DNA of 64,000 bases from Pseudodesulfovibrio portus. Its GTDB lineage: Bacteria; Desulfobacterota; Desulfovibrionia; Desulfovibrionales; Desulfovibrionaceae. Numbering within the stretch: position 1 is the stretch's first letter; every line of letters begins with the position of its first letter. The stretch is from the NCBI RefSeq assembly GCF_026000375.1, contig NZ_AP026708.1, positions 2,172,501 to 2,236,500 on the forward strand, read 5' to 3'. Positions 24,058 through 31,804 of this stretch are shown piece after piece. The position numbers and the translations under genes were made by a program. The notes beneath the pieces were generated by a model. That model did not search any database and was not told the origin of the DNA. It worked only from the letters and a program-made list of their open reading frames with translations.

Positions 24058-24315
24058 TCAGTGTGTTTCTTCGAATCCCTGGCTTTCCTTGTACGCTTCC
24101 CACTCTTCGTGGTCCACGGCGCCGTCCTTGTCGGTGTCGGCCTTTTCGAAAACCGTCACGTCGCCCCCGGAAAAGGCGACCAGGAACTCGCCCTTCGACA
24201 TGACGCCGTTCTGATCGGCGTCCAGGGAGTTGAAGCAGACGTTGTAATTGGTTCCGGCTATGGCCGGGCGGCACAACAAGAGCACCAGCGCCACGGCGAA
24301 CAGAATCTTCCTCAT
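24058..24315 (-). CDS. Small exported EF-hand protein
   Basis: An 85-residue protein with a signal peptide (MRKILFAVALVLLLCRPAIA) and two EF-hand loops, DADQNGVMSKGE and DTDKDGAVDHEE, both with the Asp/Asn and final Glu spacing needed for calcium. It is a predicted periplasmic Ca2+-binding protein. GGAGAAG lies before the second ATG at 24315, which is preferred over 24327. It lies 19 bp downstream of the CstR-like repressor gene on the same strand and may be cotranscribed with it. Its link to the sulfur locus is unknown. Confidence 0.78.
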   Translation of the reverse strand: MRKILFAVALVLLLCRPAIAGTNYNVCFNSLDADQNGVMSKGEFLVAFSGGDVTVFEKADTDKDGAVDHEEWEAYKESQGFEETH

Positions 24316-24334
24316 TGACTTCTCCATGCTGAAA

Positions 24335-24625
24335 TTATCCTTCGATGAACCCTGTCACGACCCTGATGAACTTGTCCAGGGCCTCCTTGGAGTCGGTCCC
24401 GTCTTCCACGGATTCGGCGTAGCATCGAAGCAGGTATCGTTTCAGGATAAGCTTGTTGGCGGATTGCAGGGCGCTGCGCACGGCCCTGACCTGGACCAGG
24501 ATGTCCTGGCACTCCTTGCCCGCCTCGATCATGCCCTGAATGCCGCGAACCTGTCCCTCGATGCGTTTCATGCGGGAGAGGACGTTTTTCTTGATTTTTT
24601 CCTCTTCGCTCATAGTGTCGGTCAT
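24335..24625 (-). CDS. CsoR/RcnR-family repressor, CstR-like cysteine pattern
   Basis: A 96-residue all-helical repressor of the CsoR/RcnR/FrmR family (RMKRIEGQVRGIQGM signature). The fingerprint residues are Cys39 (ECQDIL) and Cys68 (LLRCYAE), 29 residues apart, while the copper-binding His of CsoR four residues before the second Cys is Tyr64. Two cysteines without that His is the pattern of CstR, which senses persulfides and controls sulfide-detoxification genes. The ATG at 24625 fits AAGGAG with 7-base spacing. It is divergent from the TorD-like gene with a palindromic operator between. Sensing of persulfide is inferred from family knowledge and context. Confidence 0.85.
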   Translation of the reverse strand: MTDTMSEEEKIKKNVLSRMKRIEGQVRGIQGMIEAGKECQDILVQVRAVRSALQSANKLILKRYLLRCYAESVEDGTDSKEALDKFIRVVTGFIEG

Positions 24626-24676
24626 ATCCATTCTCCTTGACCCCTTTACAGGTTCCCGTTGCCCTGGGCGGGTCTT

Positions 24677-24728: not shown

Positions 24729-25343
24729 ATGCCGATCGCCGATTCCAAAATCGTTCTTCTCAAAGCCATCGAGCTGTGCGTGGCCGTATTCCGCGGCCCC
24801 GGCGCATCGCTCTGGGCGGCTATGACCGATTCAGGAGTGCCCGAACTCCTTACCAGTGTCCAGCACTATTCAGGCCTCCCGGTCGAGCCGCTCAGCCGCC
24901 TCCGGGAAGGGCTGGCAGGGTGCGACGGCGACTTCGACACCCTGGAAACGGAATACGTCCGCCTCTTCATCGCCGGTCCCGGCGGCGTCCCGGCGCCGCT
25001 GTACGAGTCCTGCCATCTCGGCGGCGGGTCCCGGACCATGGGACGCCCCGCCCTGGACATGCGGGACAGGTTGGCCGCCGCAGGGCTGGCCGTGGACCTC
25101 GATTCCAACGAGCCGCCCGACCACCTGGCCATCGAGCTCGAATACCTCTACCACCTGCTGGCGCTGGGCTGGTCCGGCGACGAACCGGCCCGGGCCGATG
25201 AGGGGGTCGAATTCGCAACGTCCGTCATGCTCCCGTGGGTGCGCCGTTTTCGCGACGCCCTGGCCGGGAGCGATCCCCACCCGGTGTTCATGGCCGGAGC
25301 CGACCTGGCCGTCGGCGTGCTCGAGTCCGTGCCTCACGCCTAG
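24729..25343 (+). CDS. TorD-family molybdoenzyme maturation chaperone
   Basis: A 204-residue all-helical protein of the TorD/DmsD/NarJ redox enzyme maturation family. LETEYVRLFIAGPGG and the signature region EPPDHLAIELEYLYHLL are characteristic. Such chaperones bind the twin-arginine signal of a molybdenum enzyme and hold it until the cofactor is inserted; here the obvious client is the PhsA-like subunit at 29017-31209. It is divergent from the repressor gene and converges on the rhodanese-thioredoxin gene so tightly that the two stop codons overlap within CTAG. Confidence 0.85.
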   Translation: MPIADSKIVLLKAIELCVAVFRGPGASLWAAMTDSGVPELLTSVQHYSGLPVEPLSRLREGLAGCDGDFDTLETEYVRLFIAGPGGVPAPLYESCHLGGGSRTMGRPALDMRDRLAAAGLAVDLDSNEPPDHLAIELEYLYHLLALGWSGDEPARADEGVEFATSVMLPWVRRFRDALAGSDPHPVFMAGADLAVGVLESVPHA

Positions 25344-26347
25344 TCCGTGGTCTCGGCCCGGATGACTGCGGCCTTGAGCACGTTCAGGAATTTTTCGTCC
25401 GGCTTGAAATAGCCCCGCCGGATCAGTTCGATGGTCCAACTCCCGTCTCCCTCGGCCCGGACCAGGTAGGCCAACGGCAACTCGGCCTGGCCCAGGCATT
25501 CGAATATCTGCCCGTCCTTGTCCGAGAAGAGCGGGTAGGCCACTTCGTAGTGCTTCCTGAACCGGACCACGGCCTGGTTGGAATCGTACACGCCCAGGCC
25601 GATGATCTTGAGCCGACCGGCGAGGACCGGGTCCGCCTCCACCTGCTTGAAGAACCGTGACAGCATCTTGGTCTCGGCCACGCAGTCGTTGCACAGTGTG
25701 TTGTACAGCTGGATGAGCACGAACCGTGCGGACAGCTCGCCCAGTTCCAGCCACTTGGCGTTGTCGGGAAGATTGAGATACTCCCTGTCCGCGTCGCCGC
25801 TCAGGACCGCCACCCGGCAGGTGGGGAAGGAGTCGCCCACGGCCAGCACGTGCCGCTCTTCGGTCCTGCCTTCCACCAGCTCGGGATGGGCCGTCTTCCA
25901 GCCATGGAAGCCCGCCGGGTATCTGAGCACGTTGGTGTATCCCAGCCGCGCCGCCCACCGGGCGGCGATGGAGCTGCGCAGTCACCTGAAGCTCCGACAG
26001 TAGATGACCACGGGCCGCGCCGTGTCCGGTCCCAGCAGTTCCCGGATTTCCTGCTGCTTGGCCTCGGGCAGGCCCAAACGGTCGCCCAGGTCGAATTCCA
26101 TGTTCACGGCCCCGGGGATGTGCCCGGCTGCGAACTCGTAGTCCGCCCGCGCGTCGAGGATCAGCGGGGCGTCCCCGCTCCGGACCCGGTCGCCCAGGGT
26201 CGCGTCGTCGATGAGCCCGTATCCGTCGCGTTCGGCCTCGGCCTTGGCCGACGCCCACCAGACCTCGTTCTCGTCGGCGGCGGACGGGACGGCGGAAAAG
26301 GCAAAGGCGAGGAGCAGACATGCCATCAATATGATTTTCTTGCGCAT
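25340..26347 (-). CDS. Rhodanese-thioredoxin selenoprotein candidate (TGA = Sec122)
   Basis: Read through an in-frame TGA at 25982-25984, this is one 335-residue exported protein: signal peptide (about 1-24), rhodanese domain (about 40-150) with the catalytic loop YCRSFR, and a thioredoxin/TlpA-like domain (about 165-330) with CNDC (Cys219, Cys222). The frame continues past the TGA with SSIAARWAARLGYTNV, the normal end of a rhodanese. The TGA aligns with the second Cys of the YCxGxxC loop in the neighbouring triple rhodanese, giving Cys117-x4-Sec122. A 7-bp hairpin with a CGGTG loop lies 14 bases beyond it. Alternatives are a nonsense mutation or sequencing error. It is the last gene of the reductase operon and probably a persulfide-transfer or reducing protein. 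Confidence 0.8.
25949..25984 (-). promoter_or_regulatory. Putative bacterial SECIS element with recoded TGA
   Basis: On the minus strand the TGA (25984-25982) is followed by 14 bases and then a perfect hairpin: CGCCGCC (25967-25961), loop CGGTG (25960-25956), GGCGGCG (25955-25949). Bacterial SECIS elements sit within the coding region just after the UGA and present a GG(U) in a short apical loop for SelB; the geometry fits. GC-rich coding DNA can form such hairpins by chance. Confidence 0.65.
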
Positions 26348-26389
26348 AATGCTCCCCGCCCTGTTAACGGTGTTCTGGTCCGGCCCGAA

Positions 26390-27487
26390 CTACTTGTTGG
26401 GATGGACCTCGTAGGTGTTGTCTTCGTTGAAGTCGTTGGTGGCCTCAAGGTAGAAGACGTTCTTGGCGTCCGGGAACTTGTCCAGGAACAGGTAGTAGGC
26501 CTCGCCCGCCCTGGCGCCGGTGGCGCAGGAGAAGACGATGGGCTTGTCCGTGGGGATGTCGGCACCCTTCTTGTCGACCATGTCCACCGGCATGTTGATG
26601 GCGGTGGGGAAGTGGCCCATGGCGAATTCCTCGGGATCGCGCACGTCGATCAGGGTGATGGACGACGGGTTCTCCTTGAGGGTCTTCATGAACCACTCGG
26701 CGTCCACGGCCCCTTCGGCCTCGCCCGCCTTGACCGCGACGTCGGCCGCGCCGAACATTTCCTTCCAGCCGGGGTAACCGGCTTCGGCGACCACGACCTT
26801 CTTGTAGCCCAGGGCCCGGGCCTTGACAGCGGACTTGTGGGACAGGGCGCACTTGTAGCCGCCGCAGTAGTAGACCAGGGTGGTGTTCACCTTGTCCACG
26901 GGCAGCATGCCGCGCTTTTCCGGAAACACGGAATCCGGGATGCCGATGGCGGACGGGATGGCCCCGTCAAGGTACTTCTTGTACGGGCGGGCATCGATCA
27001 GCATGTAGTTTTCGCCGCCGGTCAATTTGGCGTGGAGGTTCTCCAGGCCGATGGAGGTGTATGCGTGCCGCTTCTTGAAGTCCGGATAGCCCTCGGCATA
27101 GACCTTGACGTTGGTGTAGCCCATCTCCTCGGCCATGTAGGCGGACTTGTGGGACAGGGGGCAGGCCAGGCCGCCGCAATAGAAGATCAGCAGATCGTCC
27201 TTGTCGGCGGGCAGCTGGTCGGCCATCTTCTCGAACTGGCTGGCCGGGATGGACACCGCGGTCGGGATGTAACCGTCGACGTACTTGGGCTTGTAGGGCC
27301 TGGAGTCGATGATCATCACGCCCTTGGGCTTGGGCATCTTGGCGTACTTGGCCACGAAGTTGTAATCCACGATGGTGTGGTACTGCTTGAACTTGGGCTT
27401 CTTTGCCTCTTCGGCCACCGCCGGTCCGGCGAACGCCACCAGGGCGAAGACCAGCATCATGGCTGCTGCAATCATTTTCCTGTGCAT
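26390..27487 (-). CDS. Exported protein with three tandem rhodanese domains
   Basis: A 365-residue protein with a signal peptide (cleavage near AVA, residue 25) and three rhodanese domains, about 35-140, 145-245 and 255-355. The first two have the loop YCGGLACPLSHKS (Cys104, Cys109) and YCGGYKCALSHKS (Cys208, Cys213), each with two cysteines. The third has FSCATGARAGEAYY (Cys321) with a single cysteine. Rhodaneses carry sulfane sulfur as a cysteine persulfide, so it may relay sulfur in the periplasm to or from the PhsA-like reductase. It lies between phsC and the Sec-rhodanese gene, all on the minus strand. Confidence 0.88.
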   Translation of the reverse strand: MHRKMIAAAMMLVFALVAFAGPAVAEEAKKPKFKQYHTIVDYNFVAKYAKMPKPKGVMIIDSRPYKPKYVDGYIPTAVSIPASQFEKMADQLPADKDDLLIFYCGGLACPLSHKSAYMAEEMGYTNVKVYAEGYPDFKKRHAYTSIGLENLHAKLTGGENYMLIDARPYKKYLDGAIPSAIGIPDSVFPEKRGMLPVDKVNTTLVYYCGGYKCALSHKSAVKARALGYKKVVVAEAGYPGWKEMFGAADVAVKAGEAEGAVDAEWFMKTLKENPSSITLIDVRDPEEFAMGHFPTAINMPVDMVDKKGADIPTDKPIVFSCATGARAGEAYYLFLDKFPDAKNVFYLEATNDFNEDNTYEVHPNK

Positions 27488-27570: not shown

Positions 27571-28287
27571 CTACTCACCCTCGGTCTTGACCTTGTTCCA
27601 CCACAGGCGGTGGTGGTGCTTGGCGTAGTCGTCGGGCACCACGCCGGTGAACATGGACTTGAAGCCGGGCCGTTCCTCGGGCGAGATGGCGGCCATGTAC
27701 ACGTGGACCAGCAGGCCCGCGAAGACCAGCCCCACGGCGATGAAGTGCAGGGCGATGGACCAGCTGACCAGCACGGTGGCCTCGGCCCCGAAGCTCCGGT
27801 CGGACAGGTACATGATCACGCCGGTGACCGCGATGACGATGCCGCCGACCACGGACGCCTGGGCGAACGCCTTCTGGCCCATGTTGTAGTATCCCTGGTC
27901 CGGCAGCTCCGGGTCCATTCCGACCGCCTTGAGGGCCTTGGGCCCCAGCGTCATCAGGACCATCTTCTTGAGCATCCAGCCCATGTCCCGGGCCGGGCTG
28001 ACCGCGAAGATCTCCGCCAGGAAGAATCTGGCTCCCCGGAAATTGATCAGCAGGTAGAAGACGAAGCCCGCGATCCAGATGAGCCCGAGGCCTTCATGGA
28101 TGGCCAGCAGGTTCGCGCCGCCGCCCACCAGGGAGCGCAGCCCCTCTGGATAGCCCGAGCCGAACGGGTCGATGGCCGGGTGCTGGATCAGCCCCACGCC
28201 GGTCAGCAGGAGCAGTATCCAGCAGGCCGCATTGAACCAGTGGATGAAGATATCGGATTTGTCGTGCCGTTTGTGGAGCTTAGGCAT
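27571..28287 (-). CDS. phsC: Cytochrome b subunit of thiosulfate/polysulfide reductase
   Basis: A 238-residue membrane cytochrome b of the formate dehydrogenase-gamma/PhsC type with about four or five membrane helices. Candidate haem-ligating histidines are in DIFIHWFNAACW, LLAIHEGLGLIW and SIALHFIAVGLVFAGLLVHVYM. It would take electrons from the quinol pool and pass them to the iron-sulfur subunit. It differs from NrfD-type PsrC, so the arrangement is Phs-like. Its ATG overlaps the end of the iron-sulfur gene by 8 bp (ATGCCTAA), which fixes the start. Confidence 0.85.
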   Translation of the reverse strand: MPKLHKRHDKSDIFIHWFNAACWILLLLTGVGLIQHPAIDPFGSGYPEGLRSLVGGGANLLAIHEGLGLIWIAGFVFYLLINFRGARFFLAEIFAVSPARDMGWMLKKMVLMTLGPKALKAVGMDPELPDQGYYNMGQKAFAQASVVGGIVIAVTGVIMYLSDRSFGAEATVLVSWSIALHFIAVGLVFAGLLVHVYMAAISPEERPGFKSMFTGVVPDDYAKHHHRLWWNKVKTEGE

Positions 28288-29017
28288 CGGTGTCCTCCTT
28301 GTGGTCGCCGCTTCCGGCGATCAGCTGACGGCCGAGCATGGCCAGCACGCCCAGCCCGGACAGGCCGACCACGGCCTTCAGCAGCGGGGCGGTCTGCTTC
28401 ATGGCGACCATGGAGGCGGGCACCACGGCCTCGCCGCCCCAGTCCGGGGTTCCGGGATCGCCGATGTAGAACATGTTGGGCTTGGTGTCGGTCCTGGCCG
28501 TCACGCGGGCCAGTTGGTCCTTGTTCTTCTGGTACAGCCGGCCCGCTTCGGATTCGGGGTCGTTGATGTCGCCGAAGACGCGCGCCTTGGTCGGACAGGT
28601 GTCCACGCAGGCCGGGGGTATCCCGGCGGCACGGCGTTCGGGACAGTAGTTGCACTTGTCGGCCTTGCGCTTTTCGGCGTTGCGGAAGCGCGCGCCGTAG
28701 GGACAGGCCGGGAGGCAGTTGCCGCAGCCGATGCACAGCCCGTGGTCGATGACCACTTCCCCGGTTGCCGGGTCCTTGTAGGTCGCACCGGTTGGGCAGG
28801 CGTCCACGCAGGTGGGGTTGTCGCAGTGCATGCACGCACCGGGCTGGAACTTGGCCTTGCCCGACGCCTTTCCGGGAACCGGGGCGTCGTCGGCCTGTTT
28901 GATCCAGTTGCGGAACTGGCCCTCGGGCACGGAGTTGGCGACCTTGCAGGCGGCCACGCAGGCCTTGCAGTCGATGCACTTGGCGGCATCGATGACCATT
29001 GCGAGTTGTTGTGCCAT
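28280..29017 (-). CDS. phsB: Four-cluster iron-sulfur subunit of thiosulfate/polysulfide reductase
   Basis: A 245-residue ferredoxin-like electron-transfer subunit. Four cysteine groups, CIDCKACVAACK, CMHCDNPTCVDACP, CIGCGNCLPACP and CNYCPERR...CVDTCP, coordinate four [4Fe-4S] clusters. The C-terminus has a hydrophobic helix (about 206-228) that could anchor it in the membrane, as in FdnH-type subunits; PhsB of Salmonella is shorter. The ATG overlaps the phsA stop codon by one base (TAATG). There is no own signal peptide; export together with PhsA is expected. Confidence 0.9.
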   Translation of the reverse strand: MAQQLAMVIDAAKCIDCKACVAACKVANSVPEGQFRNWIKQADDAPVPGKASGKAKFQPGACMHCDNPTCVDACPTGATYKDPATGEVVIDHGLCIGCGNCLPACPYGARFRNAEKRKADKCNYCPERRAAGIPPACVDTCPTKARVFGDINDPESEAGRLYQKNKDQLARVTARTDTKPNMFYIGDPGTPDWGGEAVVPASMVAMKQTAPLLKAVVGLSGLGVLAMLGRQLIAGSGDHKEDTDA

Positions 29018-31209
29018 TACGCCACCTTCCTTGTTACGGAGACAAAGGTCGTGTGCATGGACGCGTTGCCGGTGACCGTGTCGTAGTCGTCGTCCAGCAG
29101 TTCGTTGATGGACGCGCCCACGTTGTGGGACAGGGTCTGCATGGTGGACAGGGTGTTGTAGCCCGAGAGCATGTACACCGTGTCCGTGCGGATTTTGTCC
29201 GTGACCTCTGCCGCAAGCTCCTGCCTGCCCACCGGGCTGGACACCTCGACCAGGTCCCCGTCGTTGATGCCGAGGCGCTTGGCGGACTCGGTGTTCAGCC
29301 ACAGGGTATTGGCCGGGTTGAACTGGTGCAGCAGGGAGTTGTTGGCCGTGGAGGTCTGGGTGGTCAGGGCGTCGCGGCCCACCACCAGGCGGAACTGGTT
29401 TTTCGGGACCTTTGTCGGTTCGGTGTAGACGGGCATGGGGTCGAGGCCCATCTGCTCGTATCGCTGGTTGTACAGCTCGATCTTCTTGGAAAGGGTCTTG
29501 TAGATGCGGCCCTCGTAGATGCCGTAGACCTTGGACGGGTTGTAGTACACGCCGTCGCGGTCCATGACCTCCAGCGCCTCGGGGATATCGCGGGTCTGCT
29601 TCCTGCGGTATTCGTCGATGGTGAAGTCGAAGTATTCGCCCAGGTCCATCCTCCCGGCGATCCCCTTCATGACGTCGAACAGGGAGCGGGATTCGTACAT
29701 GGGCTCGATGATCGGATCGCGCTTGACCACGCAGGCGCAGGCCACGGAGCCCTGGAGCCCGGAGCACGGGTCCGTGCGTTCCAGGTAGGACTGCGACGGC
29801 AGCACCAGGTCGGCCATCCAGGCGGTGTCGGACATGGCGATGTCCACCACGGTGACGAAGTCCATCTTGTTCATCATCTCGATGGTCTTCTTGCGGTTGG
29901 GGGCCGTGCCCATGGGGTTGGTCTTGTAGATGAACCAGCCGCGGATGGGGTACGGGTCGTCGGCCAGCACCGCGTCGCGGGTGACCAGGAAGGAGCCCTC
30001 GTGCTCGAACATCATGGGCACCTTGTGGGCGTCGATGCGGTCCTCCTGGTTCTCGTCGTACCAGGGGGCGTCATAGGGCACGCCCTTGAGCCCCACGGCG
30101 CGGGCCGCCAGCAGCCCGCCGGGCTTGTCCCAGTTGCCGAGCAGCCCGTTGACGATGGCGAACGCGCGTCGGATCTGGGTGGAGTTCTCGTAGTCCGAGG
30201 TGCGGCGGCCGGGGTAGATCATGGCCGCAGGGGCCGCAGCCGCCAGTTCGCGGGCGATGCGGGCGATGTCCTCGGCAGGGATGGAACACTGTTCGGCGGC
30301 AAAGCCGGGGGTGTATTGCTTGACGTGCTCGGCGAGCATCTCGATGCCGTAGGTCTTCTCCTCGATCCACTGCGGGTCGTAGAGTTTCTCGGCGATGATG
30401 ACGTGCGCCAGGGCGAGCATGAAGGCCATGTCCGTGCCGGGACGCACCGGATACCATTCGTGGGACAGGGCCGCAGTCTTGGTGTAGCGCGGGTCGAGGG
30501 TGACCAGCTTGCAGCCGTTCTCGCGGATGGCGGTCATCAGGTCCATGGAGTCCGGGGTGACCAGCGCCTCGAAGCGGTTGGCCCCGGCCATGATGATGTA
30601 CTTGGAGTTGAGTACGTCGGCAAAAGGCACCTCGCCGTAGGTGTCCAGGAAGGCCCTGTTGCCCGAGACCAGGCACAGGGATTCGTGCGAGGTGACGTTG
30701 AAGGAGCCGTAGACTTCGGCGAACCGGCCCACGAACTGGGAGTGCAGGTCGGTGCCGGCGGAGAAGAGATGGCCGCAGGGGGTATACTTGCTGCGGACCT
30801 CCTCCATCTTTTGGGCGGCCATGTCCAGGGCCTCGTCCCAGGGGATGCGCTGCCACTTGCCCTCGCCGCGCGCGCCCTTGCGGAGCAGGGGGTGCTTGAG
30901 GCGGTCGGGGTCGTAGACCTGGGCGATGCCCGCGTTGCCGCGCGCACAGAGCATGCCGCGCGACTTCAGGAATTTCGGGTTGGGGTCGAGTTTCTTGACG
31001 ACTCCGTCTTCCACCCGTGCGATGAGGCCGCACTTGTTGAAGCAGATGTCGCAAGCTGAAAATTTGGAGTCCCAGGCAGGAGCGGGCACGGCCGCGTTCG
31101 CCTTTTTCAGGCCGCCCAGCAGGGCGGGACCGCCCAGGGCGCCGGCCGCCACAAGGCCGGAAGCCTTGAAAAAGTCGCGGCGGGACATGGTCTGTTTGGG
31201 ATTCGACAC
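29017..31209 (-). CDS. phsA: Molybdopterin catalytic subunit, thiosulfate/polysulfide reductase type
   Basis: A 730-residue Mo-bisMGD oxidoreductase. A twin-arginine signal (SRRDFFKASG, Arg10-Arg11) directs folded export. A [4Fe-4S] site is formed by Cys53, Cys56, Cys60 and Cys88. The molybdenum ligand is most likely Cys179 in SHESLC, as in PhsA/PsrA. The length fits PhsA (about 758) and PsrA. It reduces thiosulfate, polysulfide or elemental sulfur in the periplasm; tetrathionate or arsenate reduction is less likely given the rhodaneses and PhsC-type partner. The order is cytochrome c, phsA, phsB, phsC, rhodaneses, with a TorD-like chaperone nearby. Confidence 0.88.
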   Translation of the reverse strand: MSNPKQTMSRRDFFKASGLVAAGALGGPALLGGLKKANAAVPAPAWDSKFSACDICFNKCGLIARVEDGVVKKLDPNPKFLKSRGMLCARGNAGIAQVYDPDRLKHPLLRKGARGEGKWQRIPWDEALDMAAQKMEEVRSKYTPCGHLFSAGTDLHSQFVGRFAEVYGSFNVTSHESLCLVSGNRAFLDTYGEVPFADVLNSKYIIMAGANRFEALVTPDSMDLMTAIRENGCKLVTLDPRYTKTAALSHEWYPVRPGTDMAFMLALAHVIIAEKLYDPQWIEEKTYGIEMLAEHVKQYTPGFAAEQCSIPAEDIARIARELAAAAPAAMIYPGRRTSDYENSTQIRRAFAIVNGLLGNWDKPGGLLAARAVGLKGVPYDAPWYDENQEDRIDAHKVPMMFEHEGSFLVTRDAVLADDPYPIRGWFIYKTNPMGTAPNRKKTIEMMNKMDFVTVVDIAMSDTAWMADLVLPSQSYLERTDPCSGLQGSVACACVVKRDPIIEPMYESRSLFDVMKGIAGRMDLGEYFDFTIDEYRRKQTRDIPEALEVMDRDGVYYNPSKVYGIYEGRIYKTLSKKIELYNQRYEQMGLDPMPVYTEPTKVPKNQFRLVVGRDALTTQTSTANNSLLHQFNPANTLWLNTESAKRLGINDGDLVEVSSPVGRQELAAEVTDKIRTDTVYMLSGYNTLSTMQTLSHNVGASINELLDDDYDTVTGNASMHTTFVSVTRKVA

Positions 31210-31363: not shown

Positions 31364-31687
31364 TTAGGAGCACTTGGCCGGGGACGGGGAGTCCTTGGCG
31401 AAGTCGTGCAGATAGGTGAAGATGTCGTTCAGGTCCTTCTCGTTGACGGTCCAGTCGCCGGAACACTTGATCTTTCCGGTGTCGGCAAAGGTGGCCGTCC
31501 ATTGGGCCTGGGTGCGGTCGGCCGGGCTCAGGTCGGGAGCGTCGGTGCCGTTGTGGCAGGACCGGCAGTTCTTGCGGTAGAGAAATTTACCCTTGCGGGC
31601 GTTGCCGCCGCCCATGGCGAAGGCCATGGATACGGCGAAAATCGTGATCAGTGCCGTTGCCACGGCCACGGTCAGCTTGCGGTTCAT
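31364..31687 (-). CDS. Small monohaem c-type cytochrome without distal Met
   Basis: A 107-residue exported cytochrome: signal peptide (about 1-24) and one haem-binding CRSCH (41-45). No methionine occurs after residue 25, so the usual distal Met ligand is absent; a His in YLHDF or one of two further cysteines (KIKCSG and the penultimate Cys) may be the sixth ligand. GGAGG precedes the ATG at 31687, which excludes a longer N-terminus. It is the first gene of the reductase operon, 154 bp before phsA, so electron transfer to or from that system is likely. Confidence 0.82.
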   Translation of the reverse strand: MNRKLTVAVATALITIFAVSMAFAMGGGNARKGKFLYRKNCRSCHNGTDAPDLSPADRTQAQWTATFADTGKIKCSGDWTVNEKDLNDIFTYLHDFAKDSPSPAKCS

Positions 31688-31804
31688 ACTATCCTCCAGC
31701 TTGATATTGCGTTTCCAACACCTGTGACGATGCCTCAAACATATGCCCGCGGGGGCTTTTTTCAATTATAACCTGTACCCGGCATGGGCATCCTACGCCT
31801 CCCA

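Follow-up and report, generated by a model that had tools for sequence, protein, structure and literature searches.

The gene that runs from 26347 to 25340 on the minus strand of a 64,000-nucleotide stretch of the Pseudodesulfovibrio portus genome (the whole stretch analysed, hereafter the window) almost certainly encodes a selenoprotein in which a rhodanese domain is fused to a TlpA/ResA-like thioredoxin domain. The most complete explanation, to which we assign a probability of about 50%, is that of a periplasmic Sec rhodanese that reduces persulfides as the partner of the adjacent operon, with a nearby regulator as the sensor. The first-pass annotation had placed the gene at 25340..26347, and translation of the window proved these limits correct; no strand had been given, and a plus-strand reading was dropped because the frame lies on the minus strand. 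The frame opens with an ATG at 26347 and is interrupted, as had been noted, by a single in-frame TGA at codon 122 (25984-25982). With this codon translated as Sec, a reading backed by the homologues, the frame yields 335 aa before ending in a TAG at 25342-25340.

All features of the protein are encoded on the minus strand. Its hydrophobic N-terminus (residues about 1-23, 26279..26347; helix 2-18 in the predicted model) is a plausible signal peptide, judged by eye alone; the protein is probably secreted, and we infer export to a periplasmic location. The rhodanese domain (residues 56-152, 25892..26182) matches PF00581 with 64 bits against a cut-off of 22.2, and this match spans the TGA, in agreement with the earlier description of a rhodanese fold interrupted within its active-site loop and resuming right after it. 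Cys117 (25997..25999), the predicted catalytic, persulfide-forming residue, is invariant in both a 35-row (A2) and a 17-row (A3) alignment. The TGA codon lies five residues past it, so that reading UGA as Sec gives the active-site loop Cys117-Arg-Ser-Phe-Arg-Sec122. In the neighbouring triple rhodanese the corresponding loops are CGGLAC (Cys104/Cys109) and CGGYKC (Cys208/Cys213), which bears out the proposed alignment of the TGA with the second Cys of the loop. The C-terminal TlpA/ResA-like thioredoxin domain (residues 167-335, 25343..25849) had been recognized by its CxxC motif; PF00578 covers residues 195-288 above its cut-off (28.6 versus 26 bits), the dithiol is Cys219-x2-Cys222 (CNDC, 25682..25693), and the listed matches in a structure search of the predicted model are thioredoxin folds, aligned to the C-terminal part.

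The selenocysteine reading had been made to depend on the presence of Sec machinery and on the codons of homologues, and both speak for it. The host genome has tRNA-Sec (83.6 bits, cut-off 47), SelB (399.8 bits) and SelA (613 bits) in profile searches, together with SelD (339 bits); the last, encoded outside the window at G000:C1:2044643-2045572, is interrupted by one in-frame TGA and is likely a selenoprotein in its own right. The search for relatives covered the family (288 genomes), the order (348) and a draw of 395 genomes from the phylum, and the strong rhodanese-covering matches listed for the family and order were read along with 30 loci for the phylum. In the resulting 69-genome set, from which TsoB-type and CGFxKC-type proteins (see below) and second copies of loci (L071, L096, L097) were left out, codon 122 (25982..25984) is TGA in 59 genomes and TGC or TGT in the other 10, with neither TAA nor TAG nor any further sense codon among the matches listed. 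Recurrence of the TGA across this many separate genomes makes a sequencing error very unlikely as its source.

Within this set, tRNA-Sec scored above its cut-off in 69/69 genomes and SelB in 67/69, the two misses being fragmented assemblies with TGA forms (G248, 82% complete in 470 contigs; G304, 96% in 510 contigs). Loss of the Sec machinery as the route from Sec to Cys was rejected, all 10 Cys genomes having tRNA-Sec and SelB above the cut-offs; Sec/Cys exchanges have evidently happened more than once among organisms that retain the machinery. A pattern requiring the TGA, run separately against named genomes, gave 22 stretches, in each of which the frame continues past the TGA; several of these are contigs also met in the searches for relatives. 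The genomes include Pseudodesulfovibrio, Desulfovibrio, Desulfonatronum, Desulfonatronospira, Desulfonatronovibrio, Desulfomicrobium, Desulfobacteraceae, Desulfarculaceae and strain NaphS2. The Sec form appears to be kept across dozens of related species, next to a reductase of the thiosulfate/polysulfide type.

The codons past the TGA are under purifying selection. Across 23 sequences of the genus (253 pairs), pN/pS was 0.41 ahead of the TGA (codons 26-121) and lower past it, at 0.26 (codons 123-155) and 0.29 (codons 123-330). The first possible restart after the TGA is a GTG at 25930 (residue 140), and the intervening residues 123-139 are conserved in the 56 TGA rows (Gly136 in 56, Arg134 and Ala129 in 55 each) with several synonymous codons in use. 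Conservation ahead of the first restart means that neither termination nor restart explains the pattern. L013, a near-copy of L012, was dropped from both of these counts and from the 36-sequence hairpin set described next.

A bacterial SECIS element is a hairpin whose apical loop lies about 16-37 nt past the UGA. A SECIS-like hairpin was found at 25946..25971 (minus strand), with its apical loop GGU 22 nt past the UGA, a z-score of -2.64 and a folding energy of -17.1 kcal/mol, stronger than at 70 sampled in-frame positions of the same gene. All 59 U rows (57 of the Sec-rhodanese family and 2 TsoB) have a hairpin candidate, 39 of them at p 0.1 or less versus their own gene; the contrast with 10 Cys rows (7 of the Sec-rhodanese family and 3 CGFxKC) is modest, with means of -11.0 and -9.1 kcal/mol, respectively. 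Across the window's family (36 sequences), a common hairpin has 86% of its cells paired versus 12-67% in slid structures, and changes on both sides occur at 3/8 pairs (5 cells), versus 9 cells at 3 pairs for the +2 slide, in which 67% of cells are paired. Among 500 shuffles, 41 reached the pair count and 1 the covariation score; the 36-sequence pair counts use the register of the relatives, and that of the window hairpin differs. No hairpin covariation was seen in 20 sequences from other families, and Rfam gave no match up to E 1 over window positions 25000-27000. Altogether, the hairpins lend moderate support to Sec insertion and are not proof of it.

The gene stands last in an operon that had been suggested to be of the thiosulfate/polysulfide reductase type, and Pfam and PhsA matches, likeness to PDB 2vpw and a conserved neighbourhood support this. 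The order on the minus strand is a c-type cytochrome (31364..31765, PF13442), a PhsA/PsrA-like molybdopterin oxidoreductase (29017..31209), a 4Fe-4S electron-transfer subunit (28280..29020; TtrB/NrfC/DsrO/DmsB-like, each below its cut-off), a cytochrome b561-type membrane subunit (27571..28287, PF01292), the triple rhodanese (26390..27487; three stretches of PF00581, with Cys321 in addition to the two Cys pairs above) and the Sec-rhodanese/TlpA gene. The molybdoenzyme scores 525 bits with the PhsA model NF012032, below its cut-off of 694, and is therefore called PhsA/PsrA-like only. Its nearest PDB entry, 2vpw (E 8e-113), is deposited as a thiosulfate reductase and otherwise known as the Thermus polysulfide reductase. 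A Tat signal is probable, the TAT_signal match (20.4 bits) falling slightly below the cut-off of 22.7. On the plus strand, a TorD/DmsD-type chaperone (PF02613) is encoded at 24729..25343.

Neighbourhoods were compared for 56 of the 69 genomes, and a triple rhodanese is nearby in 53 of them, further downstream in L087 and L089. The three neighbourhoods that lack it are a contig end (L055), a 3.5 kb contig (L088) and L095, whose TGA-containing gene is divergent at the N-terminus and has no operon gene nearby. Within the window's family, a molybdoenzyme orthologue (E 1e-250 or better) is present in 44/44 genomes with the Sec-rhodanese gene (E 1.5e-30 or better), and the gene is absent from 10 of the 54 genomes with the orthologue, both counts among the matches listed. 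The idea that the operon always includes the gene was rejected: in five neighbourhoods fetched from those 10 molybdoenzyme-positive, gene-negative genomes, the core operon stands without the gene in four, and the fifth is a contig end.

Next to the chaperone gene, a CsoR-family regulator (24335..24631, minus strand, PF02583) carries Cys41, Tyr66 and Cys70, where CsoR has Cys-His-Cys. In CstR, the two Cys are kept and the metal-ligand His of CsoR is absent; the regulator here likewise has both Cys, with Tyr at the His position. Of the 35 distinct homologous neighbours, 34 have Cys-Tyr-Cys and the remaining one has C-A-C, and on these motifs the protein likely fits a persulfide-sensing CstR better than a copper sensor. 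Within the window's family the Cys-Tyr-Cys regulator is conserved beside the operon. A small EF-hand protein (window 24058-24327) adjoins it and is kept in many relatives.

On the sequence evidence, Cys117 and Sec122 probably form a redox pair; we give even odds to persulfide reduction, as opposed to sulfur relay, as the main job. In the reductase scheme, polysulfide, thiosulfate or the adjacent triple rhodanese would donate a sulfane sulfur to Cys117. The resulting persulfide would then be attacked by Sec122, so that sulfide leaves and a Cys117-S-Se-Sec122 bond forms, which the Cys219/Cys222 dithiol would reduce before being recharged by a putative membrane donor of the CcdA/DsbD type. The Phs/Psr-like molybdoenzyme would carry out respiratory sulfur reduction, with the Sec-rhodanese clearing or shuttling sulfane sulfur and the CsoR-family regulator sensing it. 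Such a scheme points to a selenium-based handling of reactive sulfur outside the cytoplasm.

A function as sulfur relay instead of reductase is the strongest alternative, at odds of roughly one in three. Sulfane sulfur would travel between the triple rhodanese and the molybdoenzyme as a perselenide or persulfide on Sec122 (or on Cys117 with the help of Sec122), the only task of the thioredoxin domain being to keep the Cys117/Sec122 pair reduced. The conserved neighbourhood with both of these proteins agrees with a relay, as do the stand-alone forms in several lineages and, in one family, a Sulf_transp permease past the operon, joined in one locus by a TusA-like carrier. Against it, a second chalcogen in the loop would suit sulfide release better than storage, CxxC is kept in 39/44 fusions, and the protein is no obligatory relay, given that the operon also occurs without the gene. 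It is unlikely that the protein serves repair or protection (reduction of protein persulfides or disulfides, or selenium handling) outside respiratory sulfur metabolism: its C-terminal domain belongs with the ResA/TlpA thiol-disulfide oxidoreductases, as such a role would have it, but the linkage to an operon with a Phs/Psr-like enzyme argues otherwise. Finally, there is only a slight chance that the TGA is an ordinary stop separating two genes or marking a pseudogene, for although the frame appears as two ORFs of 121 and 196 aa in a standard listing, the TGA is the sole stop at this codon, in 59/69 genomes with Cys as the sole alternative (among the matches listed), purifying selection acts right past it and ahead of any possible restart, and the genome has complete Sec machinery.

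The protein would add a selenoprotein subfamily of wide distribution that an ordinary ORF list cuts in two, and would place selenium directly within the sulfane-sulfur chemistry of the periplasm in sulfate reducers. Not every member needs the fused dithiol, given that CxxC is missing from 5 of the 44 fusion rows and many relatives, in several lineages, are stand-alone rhodaneses without a thioredoxin domain. The five fusions lacking CxxC (L057, L059-L062) keep the rhodanese Cys/Sec and have a CCTPD motif elsewhere in the thioredoxin domain. One and the same rhodanese loop is known with C-x4-C, C-x4-U and U-x4-U in homologues, and these Cys, one-Sec and two-Sec forms, together with the repeated Sec/Cys exchange, make the family a natural experiment on the benefit of selenium in persulfide chemistry.

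The 119 selenoprotein families tabulated in a 2026 review include five rhodanese forms, UxxS, UxxG, CxU, UxxG and UxxxxU (PMC13188914), and C-x4-U is not among the five. The suggestion that the architecture may be new holds against this table and against NCBIfam 20.0, where none of the families shown is matched above its cut-off by the window protein, the best match being TsoB (98 bits versus 805). For 16 relatives TsoB was again the best match by E-value. By the rule stated in the review, by which the same domain with a different Sec motif constitutes a distinct subfamily, the C-x4-U motif would define a new one (PMC13188914). Sec-rhodaneses as such are already known; the C-x4-U fusion is a variant absent from the lists compared, and the literature passages compared hold no description of a C-x4-U rhodanese, an earlier mention elsewhere being possible.

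The closest known system is TsoB (NF045694). Its N-terminal rhodanese is homologous (98.2 bits over residues 7-153) and has its second loop Sec in the same place, all 17 members of alignment A3 match its model, and it groups with the Sec-rhodanese family when the tree (built without L157, L163 and identical domains) is rooted on CGFxKC proteins. In contrast, TsoB has U-x4-U, where the family described here has C-x4-U in 59/69 and C-x4-C in 10/69 genomes (among the matches listed), and it is named as a DsbD-like fusion, whereas the present proteins have a TlpA domain or none. With 98.2 bits against the whole-protein cut-off of 805, the window protein is not a member. TsoB-type proteins with two in-frame TGA were seen at L069, L074, L164, L174-L176, L178-L180, L182, L185 and L186, most of them in long frames.

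Form 3 of the review, NF041203 (CxU), also combines Cys and Sec in one rhodanese-type protein (PMC13188914), but with a spacing of x1 instead of x4. The window protein gave no match to this model at E 0.001 (cut-off 115 bits), and 12/17 family members match it weakly. Forms 1, 2 and 4 (UxxS, UxxG and UxxG in PMC13188914) share the rhodanese fold and have one Sec; judged from the motifs alone, it seems to stand at the place of the catalytic Cys, in contrast to the other loop position occupied here. ResA/TlpA oxidoreductases share the C-terminal fold and CxxC, which is fused here to a Sec-rhodanese. CGFxKC rhodaneses of the same phylum have the same C-x4-C spacing, with sulfur as both chalcogens, and form a separate clade in the tree.

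A passage of PMC8318568 names a 'rhodanese-like domain' and a 'sulfurtransferase' among the selenoproteins of one deltaproteobacterium; the motif is absent from that passage, and overlap with the C-x4-U family is therefore possible. The excerpt of PMC1794560 lists the selenoproteins of two Desulfovibrio species without a rhodanese, that of PMC10989961 covers tests of PhsA from another sulfate reducer with no rhodanese mentioned, and the parts of PMC11214288 and PMC12013277 compared likewise leave rhodanese unmentioned.

The neighbouring double or triple rhodanese itself has a TGA at the second loop position in another family of the order, where this holds for 7/7 loci and the frame continues (L082:6131, L084:4208, L086:4317, L087:2690, L089:7396, L092:4248 and L093:1721). 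The neighbouring rhodanese of L093 has TGA at both loop positions. No TGA occurs within the compared 300 codons of the other 46 neighbouring rhodaneses with a match. A TGA at the same loop position in the neighbour suits a redox role of that position, and a Sec gained there in another family could mean that a whole operon is turning to selenium. Tentatively, and at somewhat less than even odds, we propose a periplasmic Sec-dependent persulfide/polysulfide reductase, of a family absent from the compared lists, that would be paired with a respiratory enzyme of the Phs/Psr type, controlled by a repressor that senses persulfide, and would belong to a C-x4-C/C-x4-U/U-x4-U series, with the entire sulfur-carrier operon shifting in this direction.

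In that family the operon is followed (L089:6176-10290 and L128:10500-12255) by a Sulf_transp (YeeE/YedE-type) permease, at L089 also by a TusA-like protein, and by a small protein without a Pfam match. This extension is reminiscent of the YTD cluster, which PMC12998232 discusses for sulfur disproportionation.
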